64,000 nt of DNA from Armatimonadota bacterium (GTDB taxonomy: Bacteria > Armatimonadota > HRBIN16). The DNA is taken from assembly GCA_026003195.1 (NCBI GenBank), contig BPGU01000003.1, positions 62,001-126,000 of the forward strand, read 5' to 3'. The position numbers and the translations under genes are program-made. This document shows, piece after piece, positions 24,100-39,160 of the stretch; position 1 is the first letter of the stretch; the number at the start of each line of letters is the position of its first letter. The notes under the pieces are model-generated. The model did no database searches and was not told where the DNA came from. It saw only the letters and a program-made list of their open reading frames with translations.

Positions 24100-24594
24100 T
24101 TATTGCGAGTTCCATGATAGCAGATTGCTTATAAGTCTATCTATTACACCAGCAAGCACCCATACAGGCTCTCCTTCCACAAGTACTCCTACCTCATGAT
24201 TGACAACCATACCACCCCACGATAAGTTCGCCGAACCTATGACAGCTTTTTTTCTGTCTGCTATAACTACCTTAGCATGAAGTTCTCCTCCCCCTACATC
24301 GTCGAACGCGTAAATCTCCACGTGCGGAAAGCGTGCTTTCATGTCCAGCAGATTCTTCCGGACAACTGGCGAGAACGTCCATGGCTTGTTCAGAATAAAG
24401 ATTACTCTAACGCCACGTGCTGCAGCCTGCTGAGCCTTCAATAACAGGTCTACAGCCGATTCTGCAATAAGGTATGCAATAATCGTCACCTCATCCTGTG
24501 CCGATAAGATGATCTCTTCAACTGCAGGCTGTACTGCGCGAAATTCGTGGCCGGTGAAGTACCTGCCAGTGACCAGCAGCTGGTACGAACTCAT
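24100..24594 (-). CDS. drmC: DISARM protein DrmC, phospholipase D-like
   Basis: 164 residues from the ATG at 24594, which overlaps the drmB stop in an ATGA. A single PLD (HKD) motif is seen as H106-x-K108-x4-D113 in ELHAKVVIADRKKAVIGSAN. PLD proteins need two HKD motifs, so a dimer is likely. In known DISARM systems DrmC is a nuclease-like PLD protein. It is the last gene of the operon. It shares the lower GC content of the drm block. The product is probably active in phage DNA processing, although in some DISARM tests drmC was dispensable. It is not a phospholipase by context. Confidence 0.85.
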   Translation of the reverse strand: MSSYQLLVTGRYFTGHEFRAVQPAVEEIILSAQDEVTIIAYLIAESAVDLLLKAQQAAARGVRVIFILNKPWTFSPVVRKNLLDMKARFPHVEIYAFDDVGGGELHAKVVIADRKKAVIGSANLSWGGMVVNHEVGVLVEGEPVWVLAGVIDRLISNLLSWNSQ

Positions 24595-26372
24595 GGCGCG
24601 TTCTCCAGCAAAACCTCCCGGTCCAGCCACAGGTTTCTGTGTTCGCATGAGGTTTCCGATATGAGCGCACAGCCATAGCAGGCGGGCCCACTATACTTTC
24701 CTAGATAGAAATGATTTTCTGCACAGAGCGGGTCATTCGAGCATGCTTCCGCCAGTTCAATTGCTTTTTGTAAGATACTATCAAAGTACGGAACAAGAGA
24801 AATCAGCCCACCTGAGGAGCCCTCGCTTCCCGGCTGTGTGGCGTACAGCACAATTCCCCCTTTTGCGCTGTCCGATGTGCAATCTATACGGGTGTAAACG
24901 CGCTCACGTATCGCGGCAGAAGAGTAGCCGGCGTCGACAGAAATCGCTCTGATGAGAAAATGGGACAGCGTATGCCACCAGACAAACACAGGGTGCAATT
25001 CAACTTTTTTCTTGTCTCTGAAGAGGTGGTCAGGATAGTCGGTATGTCCGTTCTGCCACGCCTGCTTCCATTTCAGATTCAGAGGGGATTCGCCGCGGCA
25101 GTCAACTGACTCACTGATCAGCGAGATGAAAATACCTTCCCCTAAGAACTCTGTTCCGGGATACCACCTGTTATTGTCTTTATCCGTGAACGATACATCT
25201 ACAACATCAGGAGGCTGAGATGTACCTCCCACCTCCCTTCTGTAACCTGTCTGCACTGTGACCGATCTCAGCCTCAGCAGGGGAGCTATCCTGAACTGAC
25301 ATTTCCTTCTCGGCCCCCACACACATTTTATCTTTGATAGATCCACCTCAAAAAGAACAACTCCAGACCGATCACGCTTGGGAGGGTATCCGTTAACAGA
25401 TGCATTGAGAAGTTCGTCAAACTCTTCCAGTATTAGGTCAGAATAGTTCGATGATCGCAGCTGGCTGATATCCTGTAGTGCTTGCTGTATATCCTGCCAA
25501 TCGTAGCTATTGATTTCTGCACACACAGAACGTTCCAGCAATCCCTCTTTCGCGGTCTTCTCCAGCTCGCTTATAAAGTCAGACTTGCTAGCAAAAGAAT
25601 TTTTGCATGCAATAACCGTCCTTATAGTTCGAGATTCAAGCAAACGGTGAAGTCGTGTAGCACGAGGCGGGATGGTGAAAAGGGTACGCAGCTCAGGTAT
25701 GCGCAGGTTAGCAGCCTGCCTTTGTATCATAAAAGCTTTTTCAGAGCACCCTGGACGCTCGGCACTGTTTCCGATACTCTCCCTTTCGGGAAAGCGACCG
25801 GAGCATTTCCATGCCTGCCTGTAAGCCCAGCCCAAGTTCACCTTTCTGCTGCACTCAGGACACTCAATCTGCACTTGGCTGAGGCTGCTACCCGCTTGGC
25901 ACCAATTATAATACTTTGATTGTCTGGAGCACGAGTTTCCGCCATGTACAACAGCAAACCAGTCCACATCATCCAGATGCCCCTTCGGACAGGCAAGCAC
26001 AAAACGTATCGCCTCTATATGACCTCCTTCGGTATGGCAAACAGGACAGGTTTGGCCGAGGTATAACACATAGCACCCCCGCGGGTGGCATACCGTGCAC
26101 AGGTTCCAAGATGGAAAACTCTTTGTTTTGTAGATATCGCTCGACTCAGGTTTCCCCAGCTCAGCGTTAGAAGGTAGCCGGAAGACCCTAGCTCCAGCGA
26201 GCAACCCCTGAGAAACCCTCTGGTCCGAAATCTCGAAATCCTCCGGCAGGTGTTCGCCGTAGAACAGACCTTTATCCGGGAGAGGGATCAGACGGGGCCC
26301 GTGAACCCCTTCAATGATAGCACCAGGACCATAGGTATAAACGAACTGTGAACGTCTGATGTGCTGGGTCAT
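24591..26372 (-). CDS. drmB: DISARM protein DrmB (DUF1998)
   Basis: 593 residues from the ATG at 26372 (GAGGAGGAGAAG upstream); a TTG at 26387 is less likely. The N-terminal RRSQFVYTYGPGAIIEG and the C-terminal PACYGCALISETSC with NLWLDRE are typical of DUF1998. Many Cys pairs suggest zinc sites (CTVCHPRGC, CPVCHTEGG, CPECSRK). DrmB forms a complex with the helicase DrmA in the DISARM system that loads on free-end or unmethylated phage DNA. It starts 11 bases after the drmA stop and its own stop overlaps the drmC start. Length is in the usual range (~600). Confidence 0.9.
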   Translation of the reverse strand: MTQHIRRSQFVYTYGPGAIIEGVHGPRLIPLPDKGLFYGEHLPEDFEISDQRVSQGLLAGARVFRLPSNAELGKPESSDIYKTKSFPSWNLCTVCHPRGCYVLYLGQTCPVCHTEGGHIEAIRFVLACPKGHLDDVDWFAVVHGGNSCSRQSKYYNWCQAGSSLSQVQIECPECSRKVNLGWAYRQAWKCSGRFPERESIGNSAERPGCSEKAFMIQRQAANLRIPELRTLFTIPPRATRLHRLLESRTIRTVIACKNSFASKSDFISELEKTAKEGLLERSVCAEINSYDWQDIQQALQDISQLRSSNYSDLILEEFDELLNASVNGYPPKRDRSGVVLFEVDLSKIKCVWGPRRKCQFRIAPLLRLRSVTVQTGYRREVGGTSQPPDVVDVSFTDKDNNRWYPGTEFLGEGIFISLISESVDCRGESPLNLKWKQAWQNGHTDYPDHLFRDKKKVELHPVFVWWHTLSHFLIRAISVDAGYSSAAIRERVYTRIDCTSDSAKGGIVLYATQPGSEGSSGGLISLVPYFDSILQKAIELAEACSNDPLCAENHFYLGKYSGPACYGCALISETSCEHRNLWLDREVLLENAP

Positions 26373-26383
26373 TCTTCTCCTCC

Positions 26384-29300
26384 TCAAGTTTCAAAGCCGC
26401 AAGTTTCCTCGATATCCCTCAGAGACTGCGGAGCGTTTTCATAGACGACTTGGAGATCCTTATGATGCTGGTGCTGAGGATCGCCAAGAACCACATGATG
26501 CTTTGGAGCACTGGATATAGCGTATTCGACATAGCGAAGAGAGATCTTCTGTTGACGGGCAACCTGGTGCCACTTGTCCAGAAGTGCACCTGCTTGGTTT
26601 TCGACGTATCCTTCCGAAGGTTGTCGGTAGGGGGGCTGGGCCCGGGCGCGCCGTTCAAGCAGAACAGGTAAGGACTGTACCTCCTTACTTTGTCTCTCTT
26701 TGCTCATCTCCATAGCGTCATCCTCACGATACCATTTAACACTGGTGAACCGCTGATTTCTCAGCACCGCTACAGCAATTGGCCCCGCCGCACGCAGGAC
26801 AACTCCCGGAGCAAAGGGGCTCACCGATATCGGCTCTACAAACCGGTGCAGCTGGGCGTGGTAACCACAGAAGAACTCATAGTGGCTTAGGTCTCTGGGA
26901 CGGGTTGCTCTCAGGAAAGCGACCACCAGAGCACCTGTACGCCTCCCTACACGTCCTGTGGACTGGATGTACGCAGATGTTGTCTTCGGTTGCCCGTGAA
27001 CGACCATCAGACTGATGCGGGGGATATCCACACCAGTGCCAAACATCGAAGTGGTAAACAGCGCCTCTGATGCATCAGGATACTGCCTGTTGAGCGTTTC
27101 CAGCACCGCCGGCAGATGAACAGACGGAGTACGGCTGGAAAGCTCCTGAACCTTTGCATCATCTATCTGCCTCACCGACACTCCTTCCATGGTTGCTATG
27201 TCCTGCAAGCGCTGGGGTATATCCTGTCGATACAGAGCGCGGGCACCACCCAGCTCACGAATTGCGTTAAAGTATCCAGTCAGCGTCCAGAATGGGTCTA
27301 TTTGCGCAGAAGCACACTTGTTTGCCGTATGCAACAGGCGTGCCCAGATGCGTACAACAGGAGTCAACGGCCCCCTGCCGGGCGCGCAGACCCCAACGTA
27401 CAAGCGCCCCGGCTTTCTATCCTGAAGTGGGTGCTCCTGAGCGAAACGGATAAAGAAGCTATCCTTCACGGTCAACCCGGGTGGGGGAAAGGTTTGCAAC
27501 GAGCGGTTGAAAACAGACTTCACCTGTTCTTGGGCTCGCCTGACTGTAGCTGTGGAGGCAATATACTTTGGCGAATGGTTTTCCGCCTCAGAACACAGGA
27601 AGTCTACCGCAGTTTCATAAATACCCACGAGCCCTCCCAGAGGTCCCTCAATGAGGTGAAGCTCATCCTGTAGAATGAGGTCTGGGGGTTCGAGTGATGG
27701 AATAGAAATATAATTACGTGCATTTTTGCTACCGGTGGGGCTGGGGTGTTCCTGACTATCCTGCTGCGAAGGATGTGCATATGGACGATAATATCCCCAA
27801 ATACAGTGATAGTGGTTTACATTGCCAAATAACGCCGAAGCACGGGGTTCGAAAGCGAGGCGAGCAAATTTGTCCACAGTTGCTATCACGATGGAAGGAC
27901 AGCGATGATATACCTGCTCGTCCACAGTGTAAGCAGGGATGGGTACTCTATCGGAATAGTAAGGCTGCCCTTTGAGCCTGAAGGGTTCCTGCGCATAGAT
28001 GCTCAGATTACCATCAGGAAGTTTACAAAGTGGTAGCTTCTCACTGTGGTACGCCTGATAATCTCCCATCGGAGCTCCTTCGAGCCAAGGTATGTGAAGT
28101 GGGCAGTTTGGATTGGGACAGTAGATATCAAAGTCGTAGACGACGGGAGTATCCTGTTTCCCGATGTATCTGCGCATGAAGTAACCGGGGCGAGAGGCAC
28201 GTGCAAAGGCTCTTCTGCCTTTTAACTGGTTGAGAACCTTTTCCACAGCCTGTTGCCACCACTCGTCGACCTCATCCCCAGTCACTTTTTGTTTACACGA
28301 TAGTTCAACCTGCAAGGTATTAAAACCCGGAGATAGAGGATCCACTTTCAGAAGGGTTACCTGAAAGGCACCTTGCTGAGGCTGCGGCAAGCTTGGCGGA
28401 ATGGAAGACAGATTGCTGACAACATAGTAGAGTATATGTGATCCTGCTGAGAGATCAGAAAACGCCAGCAGAGTATTACAGGCTGGGCAGTTCAAGACCT
28501 GAGCCGGTTCTCCTGCTCCTCTGTTGCCATTTAATATGTCAATTGCTCCATAAATGTATCCTTTACCTCCCCATGTCTTACGTAGACGATTGGGAGTAAC
28601 ACCACCTCCGACCCATAATCCTGCACCGAAACGGGAAGACCCCCAGATGAAGTTATCAGTCATATTACACGTTCGCGGTCGCCAGCCGACAGTTCCACAC
28701 TTGCCCAGACCATATACCCTGAGATATTCACAGGCTGTTACCATCTTGAGCGTGCGGCGGAACTGCTGGATGGTCAACAGACGAAGCGTATACCGCGAAA
28801 TGACGGCAACACCAGCGCCTGTCCTGTCACCACTCTCCCGCTTTAGAGCTCTGCGCCTGCGGTAAGCCATGGTGAAGGCTGCCAGTGCAAGGTACGCCTC
28901 CGTTTTACCAGCTCCTGTAGGTACCCACAACAGGTCGCACACATTGCGTTCCGCTGATTGAGGATTGGCGATAGACTCCAGACACATCAGAATAAATGCG
29001 AGCTGAAACGGATGCCACTCCAGTGTTTTCTTACCGTTTCCTTCTGGCCATTGCGCCTGTACAGCCATTGCCTTCATCGCAAAACAGAAAGACAACCGAA
29101 CATCATCGTTCTTAAGCAGAAGATTAACACCCTCCTGTATCCTGTTCGCAACTCGCTCACTTTCGGCTATCAGCTCATTAGCAATCCTTTTCTCGTCTAA
29201 TGGTAGCGATTCTGCCTCAGCACGAAGTCCTCCGATCCACCGCTTGTATCCATCAACCAAGGGTTGAAGCCCTCTTTCCATCTGCTCTGGTTCCCATAGT

Positions 29301-30307
29301 TCCGCGAGTTTGTCTGCACTGGTTTCTGGACCCGGACCGTATTCACTGCACCAACTCAGGAGCGGCGCCTGCACAGCGTAGAGCGGCACAAACTCCGTTC
29401 TGACATCGGGAGGTGAGAAACGCTGGCGGTCCTGTTCCGACAGAAGATCTCCATCAACCCAGTAAAATGGCGGTTGTTTCTGTGCGTCGGGGAAATCCAG
29501 ATTGAGGTTCTCCACCTTCGCCTCCGGGTCAATTTTTCTCCACACAGCAGAACACAGATACCCTCTCGCCAGAACAGGATACTCTCGATACAGAAAATGA
29601 AGTCGCTTATCCTCCTCGTCAGCGGAGGGACAGGTGATAAAGGAAATGATGTTTGTGCCCGGCAAACACGTGACACGTATCTGAGGTTGAAAAACACAGC
29701 ATTCTGTAAAGAACCGCTTTTTTCCCTCGTCCTCCATACCTTGGTTCTGAGCACGCATTCTGTTTACGAGATACAGTATGATGATAAATGTATTGTCTCC
29801 CAGTTGTCTGCGGCGCGCGTATAGCGAAACTTCAGCCAGCATATTATTGCTCTGGCACAGTTTACCTTCTGCGTCAATCCACAGCTCCTGAGCTTCACAC
29901 TGAAACTGGAGGCGCTGAATGCTAAAACGGGGTTTTCTCTCCCACTTTTCGCCCGAACCGCTCTGAGAGTAACGTGCCCAAGTGATGCACACTTCAATCT
30001 CTGGGGCTCCCTCTGCTTGAACAGCAAAAAACAAACCAATAGAGTGCGGTCGACTCTGCGGATCAAGTAATGGCGAGAGAAGAGGAGGTGCAAGGATGTC
30101 CATATCCGCCGACTCGTCTTCTGCGTCTTCGGTGTATCCTTCAGCAGGTAGATCTGCTGTCGCGTCAATATCGCGCTCAGGCTCCTCCTGTGGAGCCAGA
30201 ACGCCAGTGATGTACTCGTTCACGGGACTCTGTAGTAGGGTTTCATACATCCCTCCACGCGGACCAAGTACATCCTTCACCAGTTCAGTGACAAACATCT
30301 CTCGCAT
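26384..30307 (-). CDS. drmA: DISARM helicase DrmA
   Basis: 1307 residues. Walker A (LLWVPTGAGKTEAYLAL) is near residue 460, Walker B (PDLILQDELHLIEGP) near 880, motif III (STATVRRA) just after. FGTGVDIPRISLMVVHGQPK and TTSAYIQSTGRVGRRTG near 1090-1120 are motifs V and VI of an SF2 helicase. The long N-terminal part before Walker A is typical of DrmA. A partial zinc-like pair (NCPACNTLL) lies about residue 610. DrmA together with DrmB binds and unwinds phage DNA. It overlaps the end of the glycosylase gene by 23 bases, and drmB follows at 11 bases. The start at 30307 has AGGAGGAACACGGCAGTC upstream. Confidence 0.93.
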   Translation of the reverse strand: MREMFVTELVKDVLGPRGGMYETLLQSPVNEYITGVLAPQEEPERDIDATADLPAEGYTEDAEDESADMDILAPPLLSPLLDPQSRPHSIGLFFAVQAEGAPEIEVCITWARYSQSGSGEKWERKPRFSIQRLQFQCEAQELWIDAEGKLCQSNNMLAEVSLYARRRQLGDNTFIIILYLVNRMRAQNQGMEDEGKKRFFTECCVFQPQIRVTCLPGTNIISFITCPSADEEDKRLHFLYREYPVLARGYLCSAVWRKIDPEAKVENLNLDFPDAQKQPPFYWVDGDLLSEQDRQRFSPPDVRTEFVPLYAVQAPLLSWCSEYGPGPETSADKLAELWEPEQMERGLQPLVDGYKRWIGGLRAEAESLPLDEKRIANELIAESERVANRIQEGVNLLLKNDDVRLSFCFAMKAMAVQAQWPEGNGKKTLEWHPFQLAFILMCLESIANPQSAERNVCDLLWVPTGAGKTEAYLALAAFTMAYRRRRALKRESGDRTGAGVAVISRYTLRLLTIQQFRRTLKMVTACEYLRVYGLGKCGTVGWRPRTCNMTDNFIWGSSRFGAGLWVGGGVTPNRLRKTWGGKGYIYGAIDILNGNRGAGEPAQVLNCPACNTLLAFSDLSAGSHILYYVVSNLSSIPPSLPQPQQGAFQVTLLKVDPLSPGFNTLQVELSCKQKVTGDEVDEWWQQAVEKVLNQLKGRRAFARASRPGYFMRRYIGKQDTPVVYDFDIYCPNPNCPLHIPWLEGAPMGDYQAYHSEKLPLCKLPDGNLSIYAQEPFRLKGQPYYSDRVPIPAYTVDEQVYHRCPSIVIATVDKFARLAFEPRASALFGNVNHYHCIWGYYRPYAHPSQQDSQEHPSPTGSKNARNYISIPSLEPPDLILQDELHLIEGPLGGLVGIYETAVDFLCSEAENHSPKYIASTATVRRAQEQVKSVFNRSLQTFPPPGLTVKDSFFIRFAQEHPLQDRKPGRLYVGVCAPGRGPLTPVVRIWARLLHTANKCASAQIDPFWTLTGYFNAIRELGGARALYRQDIPQRLQDIATMEGVSVRQIDDAKVQELSSRTPSVHLPAVLETLNRQYPDASEALFTTSMFGTGVDIPRISLMVVHGQPKTTSAYIQSTGRVGRRTGALVVAFLRATRPRDLSHYEFFCGYHAQLHRFVEPISVSPFAPGVVLRAAGPIAVAVLRNQRFTSVKWYREDDAMEMSKERQSKEVQSLPVLLERRARAQPPYRQPSEGYVENQAGALLDKWHQVARQQKISLRYVEYAISSAPKHHVVLGDPQHQHHKDLQVVYENAPQSLRDIEETCGFET

Positions 30308-31016
30308 GACTGCCGTGTTCCTCCTGTATTGAAACTGTACTCATGCCAGAAGAACAGTACATTCGAACCGGACACGATAGACACGCTGGATTGCGACTTC
30401 TACACACCGTTGCTCCCAAGTCGATGAGCGCAAAGTTGAAGTCTCTGGGACACTCTTTATCCAGAAGGCGGTTCAGCACACTCCGAAACAGCCTGCTGCG
30501 CCTTGAACCATCGGTAATCCGCAGACCAAACAATCTCCCAACAATCCTGACGGTGTTCGTATCAAGGAGAGCCTCAGGGTATCCCCATGCAAAACACCTT
30601 ACCGCTGAGGCAATATAGTGGCTTATGCCTGGCAGCGATTGTAACTGTGCACTGTCTTCAGGCAAAGTGCCTCCGTGCTTTTCCACAATTTGCTTTGCCA
30701 TCTCGTACAGCAACCGTACTCTCCAGATCAGCCCGGCTGACCGAAGCTCATCCTCAACTTCTTGGTAGTCTGCGACAGCCAGTCGTACAACATCTGGAAA
30801 CCTGCGCAGAAAGCGATGATACAGAGAAACTACCTGCTCTGCACGGGTTCTGTGCAGCAGGATTTCAGCAACAAGTATTCTATACGGGTCGCGAGTCTGC
30901 CTCCACGGAAAAACTCGCTGATTATCCTTCCACCATCTGAGCAGATCGCGGCGGAAGGCGACGACGTCGAATTCCGCAGGGAGGTGCCACTCTAGTTTCT
31001 GTCTCTCTGCACTCAA
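30285..31016 (-). CDS. Mig.MthI-like DNA mismatch (G:T) glycosylase of the HhH-GPD superfamily
   Basis: 243 residues with a TTG start that overlaps the methyltransferase stop (TTGA). It follows the MutY/endonuclease III layout: VFPWRQTRDPYRILVAEILL, then HRTRAEQV, LPGISHYIASAVRCFAWGY and LLDTNTVRIVGRLFG. The 4Fe-4S site is C205-x6-C212-x2-C215-x5-C221. Tyr134 stands where endonuclease III has a catalytic lysine, and Asp152 is the conserved acid. The tyrosine is the mark of Mig.MthI, the thymine glycosylase that sits beside a 5-methylcytosine restriction-modification system in Methanothermobacter and removes T from G:T mismatches caused by 5mC deamination. An A:G (MutY) specificity is less likely because the MutY C-terminal NUDIX-like domain is missing. 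It is embedded in the DISARM operon between drmMII and drmA. Confidence 0.85.
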   Translation of the reverse strand: MSAERQKLEWHLPAEFDVVAFRRDLLRWWKDNQRVFPWRQTRDPYRILVAEILLHRTRAEQVVSLYHRFLRRFPDVVRLAVADYQEVEDELRSAGLIWRVRLLYEMAKQIVEKHGGTLPEDSAQLQSLPGISHYIASAVRCFAWGYPEALLDTNTVRIVGRLFGLRITDGSRRSRLFRSVLNRLLDKECPRDFNFALIDLGATVCRSRNPACLSCPVRMYCSSGMSTVSIQEEHGSHARDVCH

Positions 31017-31957
31017 GAACCATCACGCTCCAGCATTTCCCGAATGATTCGTGCACAGGACAATGATACCACCGGGCTGACAGCATCTGCAATCATCTGG
31101 TATTTTTTCGACATGGCAAGACCTTCTGGCAGGCGAAACCCCCGGTCAAAACCCATGATACACAGGGCTTCACGCACAGATATTACACGCAATGGGAAGC
31201 TGTTTTGTCCTGCTTCTGGATGCAGGATATAGGTCTTCATAATATTTCCAAACGAAGGGGCAGGTCTTTCATAATTCAACCGGTACCAGCCGTATTTACC
31301 CGTCTTGTAGTACTTTTCATAACGCCCGATGGTGTGAAGCTGTGGCCAGACGTGGTCTGGATATTCACCACGCTGAAAATCTCTCAGCCATCCTATTGCC
31401 GAACCCACAGTTGCTGGCTCTTTCTGGTTCATTTTAAGGCGCAGGAAGAACTCGCTTGCCCCCGACCGAGACCTTCGTATACCTATGGTAAACAAACGGT
31501 GCCTTGCTACAGGCGCGCCGAAATTGCTGTAACATACCACCTCACGGTCGACCGTATATCCGTTCTTGAGCATGTCCTCAACCGCACAACGATACCTTTC
31601 ATCGTTCCGCAAGAGGGGAACATTTTCCATAAAGAAAATCTCAGGACGGATCTCTAAGACATGCACAAAAAAGATATCCAGCAAGCCACTGTCTGGGTGT
31701 TTGTCGCCACGACGCATTATATTCAGACTCGACCATGGGCGGCATGGAGGGCCTCCAATGACTACAGGGGTATTTTCGAAAGTTGTGTAGACGGATTCAC
31801 TTACCAGATCAACCTGCAATGCAGTGCCGATATTGTTGATTTCGAATATCTGCTTCGTAGCTGGCTCAACGTCGACGCCCGTGACCCTGAAGCCAGCTTT
31901 TCTGAAACCTGCGGATAGCCCACCAACGCCTGCGAATAAATCGAGGACATTCAGCAT
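31013..31957 (-). CDS. drmMII: DISARM 5-methylcytosine DNA methyltransferase DrmMII
   Basis: 314 residues. Motif I (DLFAGVGGLSAGF, residues 6-18), motif IV with catalytic Cys72 (IGGPPCRPWSSL), motif VI (MENVPLL, about 110-116), motif VIII (ARHRLFTIGI), a target recognition region and motif X (GNIMKTYILH...; ADAVSPVVS) are in normal order. It would mark host DNA at a cytosine so that the DrmAB complex spares it. The recognition sequence cannot be read here. The ATG at 31957 has AAAGGATGCTGA upstream. It is the first gene of the operon, and its stop overlaps the start of the glycosylase gene. A C-rich base composition of the neighbouring genes is absent. Confidence 0.92.
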   Translation of the reverse strand: MLNVLDLFAGVGGLSAGFRKAGFRVTGVDVEPATKQIFEINNIGTALQVDLVSESVYTTFENTPVVIGGPPCRPWSSLNIMRRGDKHPDSGLLDIFFVHVLEIRPEIFFMENVPLLRNDERYRCAVEDMLKNGYTVDREVVCYSNFGAPVARHRLFTIGIRRSRSGASEFFLRLKMNQKEPATVGSAIGWLRDFQRGEYPDHVWPQLHTIGRYEKYYKTGKYGWYRLNYERPAPSFGNIMKTYILHPEAGQNSFPLRVISVREALCIMGFDRGFRLPEGLAMSKKYQMIADAVSPVVSLSCARIIREMLERDGS

Positions 31958-32258: not shown

Positions 32259-32286
32259 AGAGAAACAATCACCTGAGAAACAAGAA

Positions 32287-32314
32287 CCCCTCTCCCAAAC
32301 CTCTGGGAGAGGGG
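32287..32314 (-). terminator. Terminator of the giant propeller gene
   Basis: CCCCTCTCCC and GGGAGAGGGG form a perfect 10-bp stem. On the minus strand TTCTTGTTTCTC follows, a U-rich tail. It is 22 bases past the stop at 32336. Confidence 0.7.
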
Positions 32315-32335
32315 CGAGGGAGAGAGCAGCACCCC

Positions 32336-35300
32336 TTACGGCACTATCACATCAGGATAGAGCCTGGGGCTGAATGTCTGGAAGAACAGGTCACTGGTGC
32401 CTGTGCGTGTGCTGCTCCAGAACAGCCACACCTTCGGTTCAAACTCGTCCTTCAGCGCGAACAGTCCGCTTTCGCTCGTGGCGCCAACCAGAGGCACCAT
32501 CGCCTGCGAACCTTCGCTGGCTTCGGAGGTTTCGTCTATCCAGCGTACCACACCCACCACCGTGCGGGGCGATGCCTCCGGGTTCCCCTGCGCATCGAGG
32601 GCGGTGTAGGTGATGCTCACCAGTTTGCCTTCATCCGCCTCGGTGAAGTAGATCCGCCCTCGTGCAAAGTCCACCTCTACCGGTCCAATGGGTGTGCTGA
32701 TGCCTGTTACCGTCACGCCCGACACATCGGGACGACGTTCACCCTGTCCATCGGTGATCACCGGGGTGAACACAGGTGCAGGAAGCTGCACGCCCAGACG
32801 CATGGTCTTCACCACAAACACCTCTGCTGGCGTGGAGCCAGTGGACTTGCGATAGAACAGCCACAGCCGGTCTACCGGAGGCGACTGCGTGGGGTTGTTG
32901 AGCGCGGGCAGGATGTACTTCCAGCGCGGGTTCTGCGACTTCTCCAACCCTCCGGTAGGTGCGCTGTTTGCGCCAGCGTAGAAGGCGATAGGCTGCGGAA
33001 CCGGCACGCCATCGTTCGGCACGAGCGAGTTCCAGCCGTGATTGGCGGTCAGCCGCATGGCGCGCGGCGTGTAGTCCGCGAACACCACATCGGTGCGCGA
33101 TGGCGCACGGTACGGGAACGTCACCGTGCCCGCCGACAGGTCAATCACCGCCTGCCAGTCGATTTGCGTGCGTGCGCTGTCGGTATAGCGCGTCAGGTAC
33201 AGGATGCCCGTATTCGAGTCGTAACGCTGGTCGTACCAGTAGACTGCCGGGTCGCCCGATTGCTGGATATCGTTGGCTGCCAGCGGGTGCGGGTCGCCCA
33301 CGCGCCAGATACGGATGCGCTGCCCTCGTGCCCACGACAGGTCGCGCGACATCCACACATTGGTGGTTCCGATGCGCTGCAACACCTCTCCGCGCACCGG
33401 CGGCAGGTTCACCGGAACCAGTCTGCCTCCACCGCCCAGCGTAAAGCGAGTGAGTATCAGCTCGTTGGTCTGCCGGGTCTTGGTGGAAGCGGTGTAGATG
33501 ACGTCCAGTGCGCCCTGGCGCGGGATCGCCAGCGGTTCAAAGGCGTTGGTCACCACGGCGGGTACCGGCAGCTGCTGGTCGCGCGTCCACGCGCTGGGGT
33601 TCAGCGGGTTGCCTAAGCAGGCGTTGTAGTAGATGGTGTAGCGCCCGCTGGCACCGCTGTACCAGAACATCACCGGCGTATTGCCCACCACCACTACGCG
33701 AGGCTGGAAGCGCGGCAGCCAGACATCGTTGCCCAGCGCGACAGGGGTGCCTGGCACACCGTTTACCACAGGTGCAACGAAGGTGACGTTCTCCGTGAGC
33801 ACGACGCCCGTCTCCTGCCGCTTCGCCGCCTGCCCCTGCCAGAGCAGGTAGGTTTGCCCGCCCACGACGAAGAAGGTGGGCGAGTAGTGTTTGATAGAGG
33901 ACGGTATCACCGTGCCCGGCTGGGTGGTGAACAGCCTGCCGTACTTGTCGCGCACGGAGCTGTTCGTCGGGTCGCGCGGGTACTCCACGCCGCGTCCACT
34001 CCACCATTGAGTGGGCGAAGCAGCCGTCCACACGCCGCGCCCTGTATCGCGCGGCAGCACCGCCACGTGCAGGAACCAGGCATTGCTCCCCGAAGGCTGC
34101 GTCTCGCGATAGCTGTCGCTTCCGTCTTCGGTCACGCGGTTTCGGCTCCAGTTGCTGCTCCATGCCAGCAGCATCCCGTCAGGCAACATCAGCGCAGCGG
34201 GCTGCACGTTCGCGGCGAGGTAGCCGGGCTGCCCGGGCTGCGGTGGGGTGCCCTGCCATGCGGTGTCCAGCTGAGGCAGAGAACCGCTCGTCCAGCTATT
34301 GGTCAGGCGCGATTCGGTCACTGTCACCTTCACGCGCATGGTGGGTTCGCTGACGGGCTGTGCCGGCTCGTTGTTCGCCAGAATACCCAGCACGTACGGG
34401 CTCCACGAGGCGGCTTCGAAAACGCGGATGTAGTTGCTGTAAGTGCCCGCCGGCGTACCCAGCGGAACCTGCACACTCACCAGCGGTTTGGAAGTTGGTA
34501 CGTTGTCGAACGCGCCTCCTGCCGCGCCCGGATAGGGCTTGTCGGGGATGGATAGCACCGTCGGACTATGGTCGGGACGCGGCTTGTGCAACGTATGCAT
34601 GCCCGGAAAGCCCTGATACTGCGGCGGGCGGAACGTCAGCCACATCGGGTCGTAAACCAGGTCGAGCGAAGTAAACACGTTCTGCTGTACCACGCTGCCG
34701 TCCGATCGGCGCACCCAGCCTGCGGTGAGCGCGGGCTTGTGGAAGGTGAAAGTCGGGTCGCCCGTTGGGCTGACCTCCCAGTAGAACGGGTTCACCTGGT
34801 CGCTCACCAGCGTAATGGGCAGCGGGTTCTGGAACAGCGGGTTACCGCTCGCATCCAGATAGTCCACCGAGCCTGCAGCACGCACGTTCAGCAGGTTCAC
34901 ATTGCTCAGGCTGCGCACCGTGAAAGGCTTCCAGGCAGGTTTCAACGCCTGGTACCAGGGGTTCGTGTTGTACACAGGGTCCATATCCGACACAGGCGGT
35001 CGGAACGCGAAGTTCGCTGGGTCTGGATGTACGCCGAAACCGTGAGGCACCGCGCCGATATCGACGGTCTCCTCCTCCACCCGCAGGCGCATATCGGGCG
35101 GCACACCCAGCGTGATTCGGAACTCGCGATACGGCTCCTCGCGGGTAGCCGGAGGCGTTTGCCTCAGTGCGGCGCCGCCCGGCAGGTCCAGCTGACCGTT
35201 GTTGTTCACATCCACGTAGACGCGAATCGGTCGTCGGATACGGGTGGCATAGCCGCGTGCGGTGAACGGGTTCTGTCCGTCGAAGCCTACGAGGTTCGCT

Positions 35301-38300
35301 GGCTGGAACTGCGGCACCTGCACGTTGACCTCCCCCACCGTAGGAACCAGTGTCCAGCTGGTCCACTCCGGCTCCACACCTACCGGGTCGGTGGGAGCTG
35401 CCAGTGCACCGCCGCGCGATGAAGCGTACAGGTCGGCACCGCCAGCCGCCACCTTCACCGCCCGCTCGGGAATATCGGGGTAGTCCACACTGGTGTTGGG
35501 GATGCTTACGGGCAGATCATCCCACGGTAGCGGGTTGATCACCGCCAGCGTGCCGTCCTCGTTATTGTGCCAGGCGACATTTGCCCGCTGCAACTTCACA
35601 CGCAGAGGGTCTCCACCCCGCAGGGCGACCTTCGATCGGTCGGCAATCTGTATCAGTCGCGCGCTGCTGGCACCATGTGGAACCAGTCCCAGCTCCAGCT
35701 GCAGGAACTTGCCCGCGTTGCCGTTGATGCTCAGTTCCTGCGGCACGGAACCTCCCACCACTGTTTGCCCAATCCAGCCCACTTCCAGATTCGGGTTCAC
35801 CGTGCCGTCCGGGTTCAGGATGCGCAGTGCCAGCGGATGGGCGATAGTGAACTCGAAGTAAGGCTCTGGTGTGCGTTCCAGCGTCATGGTTGTCTGCTGC
35901 TGTCCGCCGCTTGTGGTGGTGGTAGAAGTCACCCGCACTGCGGCAGCATAGCGCGCGCCGGGCGTCCAGGCGTCGCCGTCCTGGGTGGGAGTGATGCGGA
36001 AGGCATGATATGCCATCCATTTCTGGTTCACCCCCACGTCGGTGCCATAAGGCACCACGCCGACGGTACGGTTGACTGTGGCAGCACGGCTGCGCAGGGT
36101 GAGGGTGACCGAACGCGCAGGAGGCACCAGCCCCTGCATGCCGTAGGCAATCACGTACACCGTATCGCCCCATTCGTAGCCGATTTTGCGCGTATGTCCA
36201 CCGGACACCACTTCCTCTGGAGTGCGGGTGCGTCGCTGCACGATGTCGGCGTACTCCTGCGCGGTAAAGACCTCCACTTGCAGGTTCTGCAGGTTGGGAC
36301 TGAGCGCCGCGTCTACCAGCTCCCCGCCTGGAGGTTCGCCCGGTGTCAGGAAACCGCCGGTGGGCGAGAACGCATAGATGATGCCGTCGTCGCCGGCGAT
36401 GTACATCCAGTTGTTGGCGACGGCAGGCGAGGCGAATACTTGCTCACCCAGCGTTTGCCAGCCCCAGATGACGTCGCCGCGCACGTTAATCAGGTTGTTA
36501 TTGTTGTCCAGCACCTGCCGGAAGGTGCCCGGTCCGCCGTTGAAGGCGTTGAGCGCAAGCAGCTTACCGTCCATCAAACCAAACACGACAGCGGGTAGCG
36601 GTGTCGCTCCTGTCGCCGATCGGCTCGGAATTATCTGGGTAAAGGTACACGAGGAATACACCGCTGCGCCCAGCGAGCCACTGCCCGACGGTTTGGGGTT
36701 CAGCGGGTCGGTCACATCCTGCCACACCAGTTCCGTCTTGCCGTTGCCCGTACCCTGTGCGTCCAGCGCGTATACTGTGCCTCCTCTGTCGCCAATGAAT
36801 ACCACATCACGCACGCCGATGACGGTGTTCACCTGCGCTGCCACAGTCGGTGAGGAGTACAGGAAGGGTTCCACCGGCTCCTCATCCCCAGCGGTGCTGA
36901 CGGGTGGTCGCTGGGCGTAGGGCCACACCCACACGCGCTCGGTGCGTCGGCGACCCGTGCCCTTCTCCTTCACGCAGTACACGCGCCCATCCGCCGCCGC
37001 GAAGTACACCTTACTGTCAAACACAGCGGGCGTGGTGGAGATGGGATCCAGCGGCAGCTCTTCCGGCAGAGCAGGGTCATCCCCGGCAGCAGGCTCGTAC
37101 TTGCCCGGGTACACCCAGCGCTCGGTAGTGGTGCCGTTATCCCCTTCCGCATCCAGAGCGTACAGGCGCCCATCCAAGCCGCCGACGAAAATGGTAGGTC
37201 CTTCACCCTGTGTACGGTTATAGGCTGGAGACGACACGAAACCATTCACCACCGCCGCTTTGTCCGCTGCAGGATAAATCCAGATGCGGTCGGTTGTACC
37301 GGGGTTACTCGTGCTGAAGTCGCCGTTGCCGGAAGCATCCAGGCAGTACACCCGCCCGTTAGAGTTGGCGACGTACACCCGCCAGTCAGGAGTGCCGCCC
37401 GTGCCGATGTTCACCACCAGTGGCGAGGAGTAACCAAACGAGCCCACCGCAGGCCGCTCATTCAGAGGCTCCTGCGGCCACACCCAGTACGAGAAGGTGG
37501 TGCCGTCACCGTTGCCCACCGCGTCCAATGCGTATACCTTTCCATTATTCGCCGAGAAGAAGACCACCTGTCTCTCCACGACCGTTCCCCCTGCCACACG
37601 CATCGGCAGCGTTTGCACTACAGGGGTGGAAAAGATACCGCTCGCGCCCGTGCCCTGCTCCACAAATCGCGCGGCGTCGGCAATCACCACACGCCCTTGG
37701 GTGAACTCGCTGGCAACACGGCTATAGTTGACCAGCTCCACGTAATTCGTGCTGCCTCGGCTCATACGATAGGTGCCCAGGCTGAACCACTGTCCGCCTG
37801 CGGTATTTTGCGTCTGGTCGACCTCCACCACCGTATCGCCCTCGTCGTGATGCACAATATACCGTGCGACCGTGGTACGCTGCACCGAACCGTCGTCCTG
37901 CGGCAGCCAGACGTAGATGGTGTATCTTGCGGTATCCGCGCCGTTAGACGGTTGCAGGTCGGGCTGCCAGCGCACGCGCGACCAGGCGGTGGGATTCGTG
38001 CTGGCGGTCACGGTCGTTTGCACATAGCTGGTGCTAAAGGGATCGGGTTGCAACACGCCGGGCACTGTCCAGCCGGGATCCGCCTGGAAAAAGGGAACGC
38101 CGTCTGCGTCATCCACCGTGACCGCACGTTGACCGGTGACGTTCAACGGATACCGCCACACCACGCGCCCTGCGTTGTCAAAGCAGTACATGACGCCGAT
38201 TTCCACGCTGGCAGTGGGGTCATCATCCGAGGGAACCCGCTCGATGCGTCCGATGTACACCAGCTGTTCAGAGCGTCCCGGTGCCACCTGCAGTGTCGCC

Positions 38301-39160
38301 GCCACCGGCGAAGAATAAAACGCCCCCACATCCGGCATAAAGCGTACACCGTCAAACACCACCAGCCGACCAGCGTCGTCGAAATTGCCATTCTCGTCGG
38401 TGTGGGTGGAAGTATTGTAAGCATAGACCTCCACCGGGCGGCGACCGTCAAAGGGAAACATCAGGTCGCTGCGAAGCAGGGTACGCTCCCATTTGCCCGT
38501 GCTGGAGTTGTAAAGATATGCCGTGCTGCCGGCTGTTCCTAGCCGCACCCACCTTCCACCGGTTGTCTGGTCTATGACCAGGATAATCTCTTTATAGTCG
38601 CTAGCTCCTACCGGATAGCGAACTTTGACCACCGCCTCCCGGGCGTTCCGTCCGTTTGCTGTTCCACTGGAGGGGAACCATAGCGCCACCTGATAGCGAG
38701 TAGGTCTGGCAACGAGCGGGTTGTAAGCAGGATCGTTCGGGTCCAGTTCATTCGGTGTGGCGTTACGCCAGCGCACCACCACCGTTGCGCCGCTGGTCGG
38801 GTCATCCGCATTGCTGGGGTGGACCGCGGTGGCATAGTCATAGGAGTCCCGGAAGCAGTCGGTGACAGCATTGGTGTCGGTAATGTTGATGGTGGCCACC
38901 GAGCCCTGAACCACAGCGTAATCGCCCGCGCGATTGACGCCGTCGCGGTCTATCTCCAGCGTGATGCCCCTGTCCTGCTGGGCAGGCCACCACCAGCGCA
39001 GGTATGCCCTGCCCGGCCCGGGTTCTGTGCTCAAATTCGTTGCCCCCGTGCGCTGGGGGTCTCGGCGGAACATCGGAAAATCGTCTGCCCGAGATGCATA
39101 TTGCATGAGCAGTACGATTCCGATGACACAAGCCAGTAAACATGCTCTCGCTGTTGCCAT
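32336..39160 (-). CDS. Giant secreted PQQ-like beta-propeller protein with golvesin-like domains
   Basis: 2274 residues. A signal peptide (VIGIVLLMQYASRA) is followed by DFPMFRRDPQRTGAT, the usual entry into PQQ-propeller blades. Two golvesin C-terminal-like beta sandwiches occur near residues 85-270 and 375-500 (YQVALWFPSSGTANGRNA; TIYVWLPQDDGSV). Many propeller blades follow, with VYVANSNGRVYCLDASGNGD, IFVGGLDGRLYALDAEGD and FAAADGRVYCVKEKG. The second half is beta-rich with no catalytic motif seen. Together with the 1511-residue protein just upstream, and the large pilin-like genes beyond it, this resembles a PilY1-type tip adhesin at the end of a minor-pilin operon. No PilY1 von Willebrand domain was recognised. 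Ends in LYPDVIVP. The gene follows a 274-base gap that contains only repeats. Confidence 0.75.
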   Translation of the reverse strand: MATARACLLACVIGIVLLMQYASRADDFPMFRRDPQRTGATNLSTEPGPGRAYLRWWWPAQQDRGITLEIDRDGVNRAGDYAVVQGSVATINITDTNAVTDCFRDSYDYATAVHPSNADDPTSGATVVVRWRNATPNELDPNDPAYNPLVARPTRYQVALWFPSSGTANGRNAREAVVKVRYPVGASDYKEIILVIDQTTGGRWVRLGTAGSTAYLYNSSTGKWERTLLRSDLMFPFDGRRPVEVYAYNTSTHTDENGNFDDAGRLVVFDGVRFMPDVGAFYSSPVAATLQVAPGRSEQLVYIGRIERVPSDDDPTASVEIGVMYCFDNAGRVVWRYPLNVTGQRAVTVDDADGVPFFQADPGWTVPGVLQPDPFSTSYVQTTVTASTNPTAWSRVRWQPDLQPSNGADTARYTIYVWLPQDDGSVQRTTVARYIVHHDEGDTVVEVDQTQNTAGGQWFSLGTYRMSRGSTNYVELVNYSRVASEFTQGRVVIADAARFVEQGTGASGIFSTPVVQTLPMRVAGGTVVERQVVFFSANNGKVYALDAVGNGDGTTFSYWVWPQEPLNERPAVGSFGYSSPLVVNIGTGGTPDWRVYVANSNGRVYCLDASGNGDFSTSNPGTTDRIWIYPAADKAAVVNGFVSSPAYNRTQGEGPTIFVGGLDGRLYALDAEGDNGTTTERWVYPGKYEPAAGDDPALPEELPLDPISTTPAVFDSKVYFAAADGRVYCVKEKGTGRRRTERVWVWPYAQRPPVSTAGDEEPVEPFLYSSPTVAAQVNTVIGVRDVVFIGDRGGTVYALDAQGTGNGKTELVWQDVTDPLNPKPSGSGSLGAAVYSSCTFTQIIPSRSATGATPLPAVVFGLMDGKLLALNAFNGGPGTFRQVLDNNNNLINVRGDVIWGWQTLGEQVFASPAVANNWMYIAGDDGIIYAFSPTGGFLTPGEPPGGELVDAALSPNLQNLQVEVFTAQEYADIVQRRTRTPEEVVSGGHTRKIGYEWGDTVYVIAYGMQGLVPPARSVTLTLRSRAATVNRTVGVVPYGTDVGVNQKWMAYHAFRITPTQDGDAWTPGARYAAAVRVTSTTTTSGGQQQTTMTLERTPEPYFEFTIAHPLALRILNPDGTVNPNLEVGWIGQTVVGGSVPQELSINGNAGKFLQLELGLVPHGASSARLIQIADRSKVALRGGDPLRVKLQRANVAWHNNEDGTLAVINPLPWDDLPVSIPNTSVDYPDIPERAVKVAAGGADLYASSRGGALAAPTDPVGVEPEWTSWTLVPTVGEVNVQVPQFQPANLVGFDGQNPFTARGYATRIRRPIRVYVDVNNNGQLDLPGGAALRQTPPATREEPYREFRITLGVPPDMRLRVEEETVDIGAVPHGFGVHPDPANFAFRPPVSDMDPVYNTNPWYQALKPAWKPFTVRSLSNVNLLNVRAAGSVDYLDASGNPLFQNPLPITLVSDQVNPFYWEVSPTGDPTFTFHKPALTAGWVRRSDGSVVQQNVFTSLDLVYDPMWLTFRPPQYQGFPGMHTLHKPRPDHSPTVLSIPDKPYPGAAGGAFDNVPTSKPLVSVQVPLGTPAGTYSNYIRVFEAASWSPYVLGILANNEPAQPVSEPTMRVKVTVTESRLTNSWTSGSLPQLDTAWQGTPPQPGQPGYLAANVQPAALMLPDGMLLAWSSNWSRNRVTEDGSDSYRETQPSGSNAWFLHVAVLPRDTGRGVWTAASPTQWWSGRGVEYPRDPTNSSVRDKYGRLFTTQPGTVIPSSIKHYSPTFFVVGGQTYLLWQGQAAKRQETGVVLTENVTFVAPVVNGVPGTPVALGNDVWLPRFQPRVVVVGNTPVMFWYSGASGRYTIYYNACLGNPLNPSAWTRDQQLPVPAVVTNAFEPLAIPRQGALDVIYTASTKTRQTNELILTRFTLGGGGRLVPVNLPPVRGEVLQRIGTTNVWMSRDLSWARGQRIRIWRVGDPHPLAANDIQQSGDPAVYWYDQRYDSNTGILYLTRYTDSARTQIDWQAVIDLSAGTVTFPYRAPSRTDVVFADYTPRAMRLTANHGWNSLVPNDGVPVPQPIAFYAGANSAPTGGLEKSQNPRWKYILPALNNPTQSPPVDRLWLFYRKSTGSTPAEVFVVKTMRLGVQLPAPVFTPVITDGQGERRPDVSGVTVTGISTPIGPVEVDFARGRIYFTEADEGKLVSITYTALDAQGNPEASPRTVVGVVRWIDETSEASEGSQAMVPLVGATSESGLFALKDEFEPKVWLFWSSTRTGTSDLFFQTFSPRLYPDVIVP

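Follow-up and report, generated by a model that had tools for sequence, protein, structure and literature searches.

A Mig-like DNA glycosylase encoded in a DISARM operon of the 5mC type, a predicted repair partner of the cytosine methyltransferase

Introduction

Type II restriction-modification (R-M) systems are known to carry their own remedy for the mutational cost of cytosine methylation, which is either Vsr or Mig (V genes). The two are unrelated: Vsr, of very-short-patch repair, is a nicking endonuclease for T:G derived from 5mC, with its gene beside that of the 5mC methyltransferase, and Mig.MthI, from the Methanothermobacter plasmid pFV1 (PDB 1KEA), is a thymine/uracil-DNA glycosylase, a single-domain HhH-GPD protein with a 4Fe-4S site, encoded near a NgoPII REase and a 5mC methyltransferase gene. 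The residues proposed to form the thymine pocket of Mig.MthI are F27, R30, R47, A50 and Y126, with A50 and L187 as the published T-versus-A switch, and the corresponding V45A/Q182L exchange in E. coli MutY gave no T:G activity (PMC2714593). The locus described here has a gene resembling that of Mig.MthI, attached to a DISARM system and not to a Type II nuclease. We found no earlier report of an association between DISARM and a glycosylase, the parts themselves being known.

Operon organisation

The window, that is, the whole stretch of DNA analysed, is 64,000 nucleotides long, and it contains an operon of five overlapping genes on the minus strand (24100-31957) in the order drmMII-gly-drmA-drmB-drmC, where gly is the glycosylase gene. 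The features are as follows:

31013..31957, minus strand: drmMII, C5-cytosine methyltransferase, 314 aa (PADLOC DrmMII PDLC02655 1.2e-105; PF00145 8e-35)
30285..31016, minus strand: gly, Mig-like HhH-GPD 4Fe-4S glycosylase, 243 aa, TTG start (PF00730; PADLOC PDLC03398)
26384..30307, minus strand: drmA long form, SF2 helicase, 1307 aa (NF038326 DISARM_DrmAL 1604 bits, cut-off 999; PADLOC DrmA 1613 bits)
24591..26387, minus strand: drmB, MZB/DUF1998 protein, 598 aa (NF038324 451 bits, cut-off 240; PADLOC DrmB 693 bits)
24100..24648, minus strand: drmC, PLD-family nuclease, 182 aa (PADLOC DrmC 8e-44; PF13091)
31013..31016, minus strand: stop/start overlap of drmMII and gly, 4 nt, TTGA (sequence; kept in sister species L032)
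30285..30307, minus strand: overlap of gly and drmA, 23 nt (sequence; kept in sister species L032)
32286..32315, minus strand: terminator-like hairpin upstream of drmMII, 13-pair stem and T-rich tail (consensus match only)

DrmA, DrmB, DrmC and DrmMII were each recognised by a profile, DrmC with a score under the NF038319 cut-off (88.6 versus 133), and from these genes the locus is predicted to be a DISARM of the 5mC type that restricts phages. It shares drmMII, drmA, drmB and drmC with DISARM class 2, but it differs in its long DrmA, in the additional glycosylase gene that separates drmMII from drmA, and in having no drmE in the operon, as all five overlapping genes of 24100-31957 were assigned to other families; it is thus not class 2 in the strict sense, which has drmE within the operon. 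The hairpin is likely to mark the end of the preceding gene (32336-39160, minus strand), and the DISARM operon would then begin downstream of it.

The 4-nt TTGA overlap suggests that drmMII and gly are translationally coupled, and the ends of drmA/drmB and drmB/drmC overlap too. Both junctions of gly, on the drmMII side and on the drmA side, are kept in the sister species. The dN/dS values of gly (0.23), drmA (0.21) and drmB (0.24) indicate purifying selection of like strength. No Vsr was found in the genome to which the window belongs, and drmMII is its only PF00145 match, that is, the only 5mC methyltransferase found. An earlier, sequence-only reading of this DNA expected such an enzyme to matter most in a thermophile; the 16S GC content of 61% and a composition-predicted growth optimum of about 49 C lend weak support to host thermophily.

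The glycosylase and its base pocket

The same reading had described a 243-residue HhH-GPD protein with a 4Fe-4S site and Tyr134, whose gene overlaps both drmMII and drmA, and the open reading frame, the PF00730 match (38.9 bits, cut-off 26.2), the cysteines and the two overlaps all confirm this. The key residues, placed by alignment, are encoded at the following positions:

30864..30866, minus strand: codon of Glu51 (Mig E42, E. coli MutY E37)
30615..30617, minus strand: codon of Tyr134 (Mig Y126; Lys in endonuclease III)
30561..30563, minus strand: codon of Asp152, the catalytic Asp (Mig D144)
30354..30404, minus strand: 4Fe-4S cysteine loop C205-X6-C212-X2-C215-X5-C221 (sequence and alignment)

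The protein is a single HhH-GPD domain with the 4Fe-4S site, without the C-terminal domain of MutY, and it has the catalytic set of Glu, Tyr and Asp of Mig.MthI. Assignment as endonuclease III (Nth) was rejected, as Tyr134 replaces the catalytic lysine; a separate Nth is encoded in the genome (L003). Tyr134 thus does part of what had been claimed for it: it separates the protein from endonuclease III, but as a discriminator between Mig and MutY it had to be given up, because all 13 MutY relatives compared also have a tyrosine there.

F36, R39, R56, A59 and Y134 align with F27, R30, R47, A50 and Y126 of Mig.MthI, so that every proposed pocket residue is matched, and F195 takes the position of L187. 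The protein thus has the features of the Mig type: alanine at position 50, a residue other than Gln at 187, and the equivalents of the methyl-pocket residues F27 and R47. Over the 17 members of the family the six positions are F/Y, R, R, A or V, Y (17 of 17) and F/Y/L, the last being that of L187, as against L/M, R, Q, V, Y and Q/E/A in MutY. The family pocket is not identical to that of Mig, because 5 of the 17 members have Val at position 59 and most have an aromatic residue, Phe or Tyr, in place of Leu187; an invariant Trp98 is a further difference. The alignment also bears on one of two observations that the sequence-only reading had named as telling against itself, active-site residues of the MutY type. 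These were not seen: the MutY signature of Q-Q, Val45 and Gln182 (mostly Gln/Glu) is replaced by H-R, Ala and Phe, and L/M at the base pocket by Phe. This supports the reading of the protein as a probable Mig-like enzyme for T:G repair.

In overall sequence and fold the closest match is MutY, of which the protein keeps the Glu, Tyr, Asp and Asn. The top PDB matches, by sequence and by fold, are MutY catalytic domains; the identity is 37.5% to GsMutY versus 32% to Mig, and Foldseek with the AlphaFold2 model (pLDDT 87.4) gave a TMt of 0.90 for the MutY N-terminal domain and 0.88 for Mig 1kea. The match to TIGR01084 mutY, 185 bits, is far under the cut-off of 286.5. The profile PDLC03398 gave 124 bits for the protein and 531 bits for Mig.MthI itself, but was set aside as evidence of class because its score ranges for DISARM glycosylases (106-127 bits) and for MutY (89-119 bits) overlap. 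In the phylogeny the 17 proteins form a clade (support 96/94) apart from the MutY clade (95/97), and the grouping of this clade with Mig.MthI has a support of 67/59. With an earlier and smaller set of 12 members, a grouping with MutY was not rejected (p-AU 0.48).

These similarities could mean that the protein is a second, shortened MutY, which excises A paired with G or 8-oxoG and has come into the operon by accident. The chromosomal MutY of the genus lacks the catalytic Glu, genus-wide, and might leave a role vacant. We regard this as improbable, since Q-Q, V and Q/E are all altered, the C-terminal 8-oxoG domain is missing, and neither the linkage to a 5mC methyltransferase nor the substitution by Vsr described below would be explained. 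A role as replacement for the chromosomal MutY was rejected, because a gene of this type is present in only 2 of 10 genomes of the genus and absent from 7 of the 9 relatives, whose MutY is equally without Glu.

Occurrence at 5mC methyltransferase genes

The other observation named in advance, a co-occurrence no better than chance, was not borne out, the level seen being far higher. Wherever the contig reaches far enough, the family member lies at most 44 bp from, or overlaps, a 5mC methyltransferase gene (16 of 16: 12 of 12 in DISARM loci, and L101, L165, L167 and L169), and 7 of these 16 were found by the glycosylase sequence alone, outside the set used for building the search models. The family is spread over Armatimonadota, Chloroflexota, a MAG filed as Proteobacteria and an archaeon, in several arrangements but always at a 5mC gene, and the partner methyltransferases belong to several dissimilar lineages. 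The loci include DISARM of the DrmA-long and DrmE types (Armatimonadota, Chloroflexota and the archaeon; the DrmE-type locus with a glycosylase is L166), and outside DISARM a Type II R-M system of the MvaI/BcnI kind, MORC and Z1/AIPR. In Thermoflexus (L048/L101) drmA lies on one contig and the glycosylase gene on another, both with similar TPR genes, and we therefore claim no linkage of the two there.

Among DISARM loci, the glycosylase was present in 10 of 23 with a 5mC gene versus 0 of 26 without one (p=1.4e-4, Fisher's test uncorrected for phylogeny, loci ascertained through the glycosylase excluded). When loci found through the glycosylase are included the counts are 12 of 25 and 0 of 26 (p=3e-5, same test, again uncorrected for phylogeny). 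A phylogenetic pairwise test had only 5 pairs and low power, and on the DrmA tree the presence of the glycosylase changes state at least 5 times. Gene overlaps can arise randomly and part of the 5mC-DISARM loci lack the gene, but that an unrelated repair gene has landed here as a chance neighbour is hardly credible given these changes of state and the recurrence at 5mC genes in such distant groups.

Some of the loci without the glycosylase have another enzyme in its place. In two of them (L134 and L142) a Vsr (PF03852) overlaps the methyltransferase, and in a third (L058) an endonuclease III-like protein does so. The Mig-like glycosylase and Vsr, which are unrelated, thus stand as alternatives beside DISARM methyltransferases, probably for the same lesion, and the endonuclease III-like protein is possibly a third. 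About ten 5mC-DISARM loci, in cyanobacteria, Streptomyces, one Ardenticatenales and one Armatimonadota, had no such enzyme nearby; because the cyanobacterial and Streptomyces loci do without any, the glycosylase is best described as a recurrent accessory. The idea that DISARM carries its own repair enzyme is supported, in that the arrangement recurs and has stand-ins, but the glycosylase is not exclusive to DISARM and about half of the 5mC-DISARM loci lack it.

The position in a defence operon could also point to an antiviral restriction glycosylase, attacking DNA that lacks the DISARM mark or carries unusual pyrimidines, for example uracil or hydroxymethyluracil. The R.PabI enzymes, one precedent for such a function, have a different fold. 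There are restriction glycosylases in this family, and a function in generalised restriction has been suggested for uracil glycosylases (PMC10273834); where cytosine methylation is lacking, a Vsr-like enzyme can be harmful to the cell (PMC12907096). We consider this role unlikely. With DrmA/DrmB/DrmC, the operon has a machinery of its own already; some 5mC-DISARM loci do without the glycosylase, and the Vsr stand-in agrees with G:T repair. The glycosylase is, furthermore, common to an ordinary Type II R-M system: L165, which has its own MvaI/BcnI nuclease, is the sister of the DISARM member L033 (support 100/99). Similarly unlikely is that the enzyme, in addition to repair, has a working part in DISARM immunity, either by attacking invading DNA, from which it would excise T, U or modified pyrimidines, or by killing cells that lose DrmMII, which would make 5mC-DISARM a helicase/nuclease and base-excision defence.

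Proposed role

Our preferred reading, to which we give a probability of about 0.8, is that the protein is a monofunctional thymine(/uracil)-DNA glycosylase of the Mig type and the repair partner of DrmMII, a role like that of Vsr. DrmMII presumably writes 5-methylcytosine as the DISARM self mark. Deamination of this base to T would give a G:T mispair, from which the glycosylase would flip out and remove the T opposite G. By analogy with Mig.MthI, the chemistry would involve Glu51 and Asp152 in a hydrophobic pocket where Tyr134 touches the base, and base-excision repair of the host would then restore C. If the enzyme has this T:G activity and acts at the DrmMII motif, the methylation sites would be spared from mutation and the self mark preserved, to the probable benefit of the host.

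The plant enzymes ROS1 and DEMETER belong to the same superfamily of HhH-GPD proteins with a 4Fe-4S site, and a 5mC writer always adjoins the gene, so an eraser of 5mC that resets or regulates the mark can be imagined. ROS1/DME are, however, bifunctional and have a catalytic Lys where Tyr is invariant in the family (17 of 17), an eraser co-expressed with the writer would undo the self-marking, and the Vsr stand-ins are inactive on 5mC:G pairs, all of which makes such a function very improbable.

Immunity that tells self by methylated cytosine pays for it in mutations. With a T:G repair role, the own-remedy logic of Type II R-M systems would hold for multi-gene 5mC defence as well, and what the self mark costs becomes directly testable. 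As candidate T:G glycosylases the members of the family constitute a new clade, and for annotation it follows that a short "MutY" without Q-Q and the C-terminal domain should, if it lies beside a 5mC methyltransferase, be read as a probable T:G glycosylase.

A scan of the genome contigs with the glycosylase protein only gave no match, and the alignment search with DrmA-long yielded 20 loci. No relatives were found in viral contigs. Phage records contained matches of less than 41% identity, mostly in unannotated records.

Operon organisation

Every element described by the sequence-only reading is present in the window. Five consecutive genes overlap on the minus strand, with the glycosylase gene among them:

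31957-31013, minus strand: drmMII, 5mC methyltransferase
31016-30285, minus strand: glycosylase
30307-26384, minus strand: drmA
26387-24591, minus strand: drmB
24648-24100, minus strand: drmC

TTGA is common to the drmMII stop and the glycosylase start, and 23 nt are shared between the glycosylase gene and drmA. Both glycosylase junctions are kept in the sister species (L032), as are the flanking genes downstream of drmC. Between the two species dN/dS is 0.23 for the glycosylase, which indicates purifying selection on the gene, and 0.15, 0.21 and 0.24 for drmMII, drmA and drmB. The window genome has a single PF00145 methyltransferase, the DISARM one, and no Vsr, an unrelated T:G repair endonuclease, was found in it.

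Identity of the glycosylase

HhH-GPD was the only Pfam domain in the glycosylase. The AlphaFold2 model (nine-member alignment) had a pLDDT of 87.4, and the closest folds were the catalytic domain of MutY, at a TM of 0.90 normalised to 5kn9, and, at 0.88, 1kea, the structure of Mig.MthI, which is the thymine/uracil-DNA glycosylase of plasmid pFV1. The Mig-type identity had been argued from Tyr134; the residue is tyrosine and not the lysine of endonuclease III, but it cannot decide between Mig and MutY, because all MutY relatives compared share it. The published residues for thymine or adenine choice, unlike the tyrosine, do decide between MutY and a Mig-type enzyme, as judged from the sequence. 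Published work ties this choice to A50 and L187 of Mig and to F27, R30, R47 and Y126, the proposed pocket for the thymine methyl group (PMC2714593).

Residues at the Mig positions (Mig: window protein; 17 family members; 13 MutYs)
F27: F36; F/Y; L/M
R30: R39; R; R (one H)
R47: R56; R; Q
A50: A59; A (12) or V (5); V
Y126: Y134; Y; Y
L187: F195; F/Y/L (14 aromatic, 3 Leu); Q/E/A

The predicted pocket is Mig-like, though not identical to that of Mig. MutY has a C-terminal domain, whereas the window protein stops after the 4Fe-4S loop. Trp98-Arg99 is invariant in the family, and none of the Mig-like or MutY proteins in the comparison has Trp98. Two identities were ruled out, endonuclease III by Tyr in place of Lys, and standard MutY by the pocket residues and the missing C-terminal domain.

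In the tree the 17 glycosylases form one supported clade (96/94) and MutY another (95/97), and the Mig-like plasmid proteins fall into no single group. The 17-member clade groups with Mig-like proteins at 67/59, and for an earlier set of 12 members the topology test did not reject a grouping with MutY (p-AU 0.48). Our claim is therefore that the window glycosylase works like Mig, and descent from the Mig family is no part of it. One family member, in a MORC-Z1-DUF4420-AIPR locus (L169:9521-10204), has His in place of the second 4Fe-4S cysteine.

Linkage to 5mC methyltransferases

Among DISARM loci with readable context, from Armatimonadota and Chloroflexota genomes and a genome_contigs scan, the glycosylase occurs in 12/25 with a 5mC gene as compared to 0/26 without (Fisher 3e-5, relatedness ignored). 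With the loci found via the glycosylase left out, the counts are 10/23 and 0/26 (Fisher 1.4e-4, relatedness ignored). Supported branches of the DrmA tree carry five or more switches in glycosylase presence; a phylogenetic pairs test of the association was uninformative, with too few pairs. In the sampled genus, two of ten genomes have DrmA-long, and exactly these two have the glycosylase. Ten 5mC-DISARM loci, mostly cyanobacterial, with Streptomyces, Ardenticatenales and one Armatimonadota, had no glycosylase or Vsr-type gene nearby.

From the glycosylase side, 400 Chloroflexota and 291 Armatimonadota genomes were searched by the glycosylase model alone. It matched 12 genes, all 12 adjoining a 5mC methyltransferase gene, and seven of them were outside model building (genomes G403, G426, G036, G368, G675, G538 and G366). 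The contexts include DrmA-long DISARM, other DISARM (G403, G538), DrmE-type DISARM (G368; PF24957 DrmE 1.8e-40), an MvaI/BcnI-type R-M system (G036; PF15515) and two MORC loci, one with a response regulator (G675) and one of the form MORC-Z1-DUF4420-AIPR (G366). The R-M glycosylase of G036 is sister (100/99) to a DISARM glycosylase. By best-query scores the partner methyltransferases belong to several dissimilar lineages, which ties the glycosylase to 5mC chemistry and not to one methyltransferase.

Double-HATPase (paraMORC-like) genes recur beside 5mC/glycosylase or 5mC/DISARM loci (L033:1343-3547, L058:3090-5330, L167:7527-9701). Two cyanobacterial Mig-like glycosylases (L068:7950-8633, L102:9327-10001), a separate well-supported pair outside the family, had no 5mC methyltransferase seen nearby. 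In Thermoflexus, DrmABC and 5mC-glycosylase lie on different contigs (L048/L101); both contigs carry closely similar TPR genes towards one end and are possibly a single locus split in assembly.

Replacement by Vsr or an endonuclease III-like protein

Vsr repairs T:G formed by 5mC deamination. L134 is a DrmA-long DISARM locus that has a 5mC gene and lacks the glycosylase. Its methyltransferase gene is overlapped at the 3' end by the gene of a Vsr endonuclease (PF03852, 69.6 bits, cut-off 27), and L142 has the same arrangement. In L058 a Lys-type endonuclease III-like HhH-GPD gene overlaps the methyltransferase gene instead of Vsr; in this Schekmanbacteria DISARM (L058:5330-15690) DrmA and DrmB are fused in one 1876-aa ORF. 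Vsr in the glycosylase slot is the strongest available functional evidence for a T:G role short of an assay, because a protein of different ancestry that repairs this lesion takes the same place. A counter-example is L149:5597-6064, a Vsr-family gene directly behind drmC with no detectable 5mC gene. This DISARM locus carries an MmeI/Eco57I-type adenine methyltransferase. The ten 5mC-DISARM loci with neither kind of gene nearby likewise count against the reading.

The proposal that the operon carries its own T:G repair enzyme is thus supported by the pocket residues, the 5mC linkage and the Vsr replacement, with the tyrosine reasoning corrected; the biochemical activity is what we infer. A 16S GC of 61.1% and a composition-based temperature estimate of ~49 C are consistent with moderate thermophily but do not prove it.

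Relation to known systems

On pFV1 the Mig.MthI gene has genes for an NgoPII-family nuclease and a 5mC methyltransferase nearby, and Mig-like genes were also found near 5mC methyltransferases on Thermus, Caldicellulosiruptor and haloarchaeal plasmids. Vsr genes have been reported near 5mC/MORC loci (PMC8011034). The parts and the principle are already known; the glycosylase-DISARM combination, the distinct clade and the alternation with Vsr appear to be new. The glycosylase is not mentioned in the DISARM structure paper (PMC9142583) or the YprA survey (PMC12458937), and a full-text literature search, of incomplete coverage so that absence is no proof, gave no report of the combination.

Chromosomal MutY of the genus

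The chromosomal MutY of the genus (L002, G000:C3:306735-307829, and L171-L178) has Ala for the catalytic Glu in 9/9 genomes and His or Gln for the PWR Arg, and keeps Q-Q, V, Q, Tyr and Asp. It is possibly inactive or altered throughout the genus, and that of the window genome also has His at the active-site Asn position.
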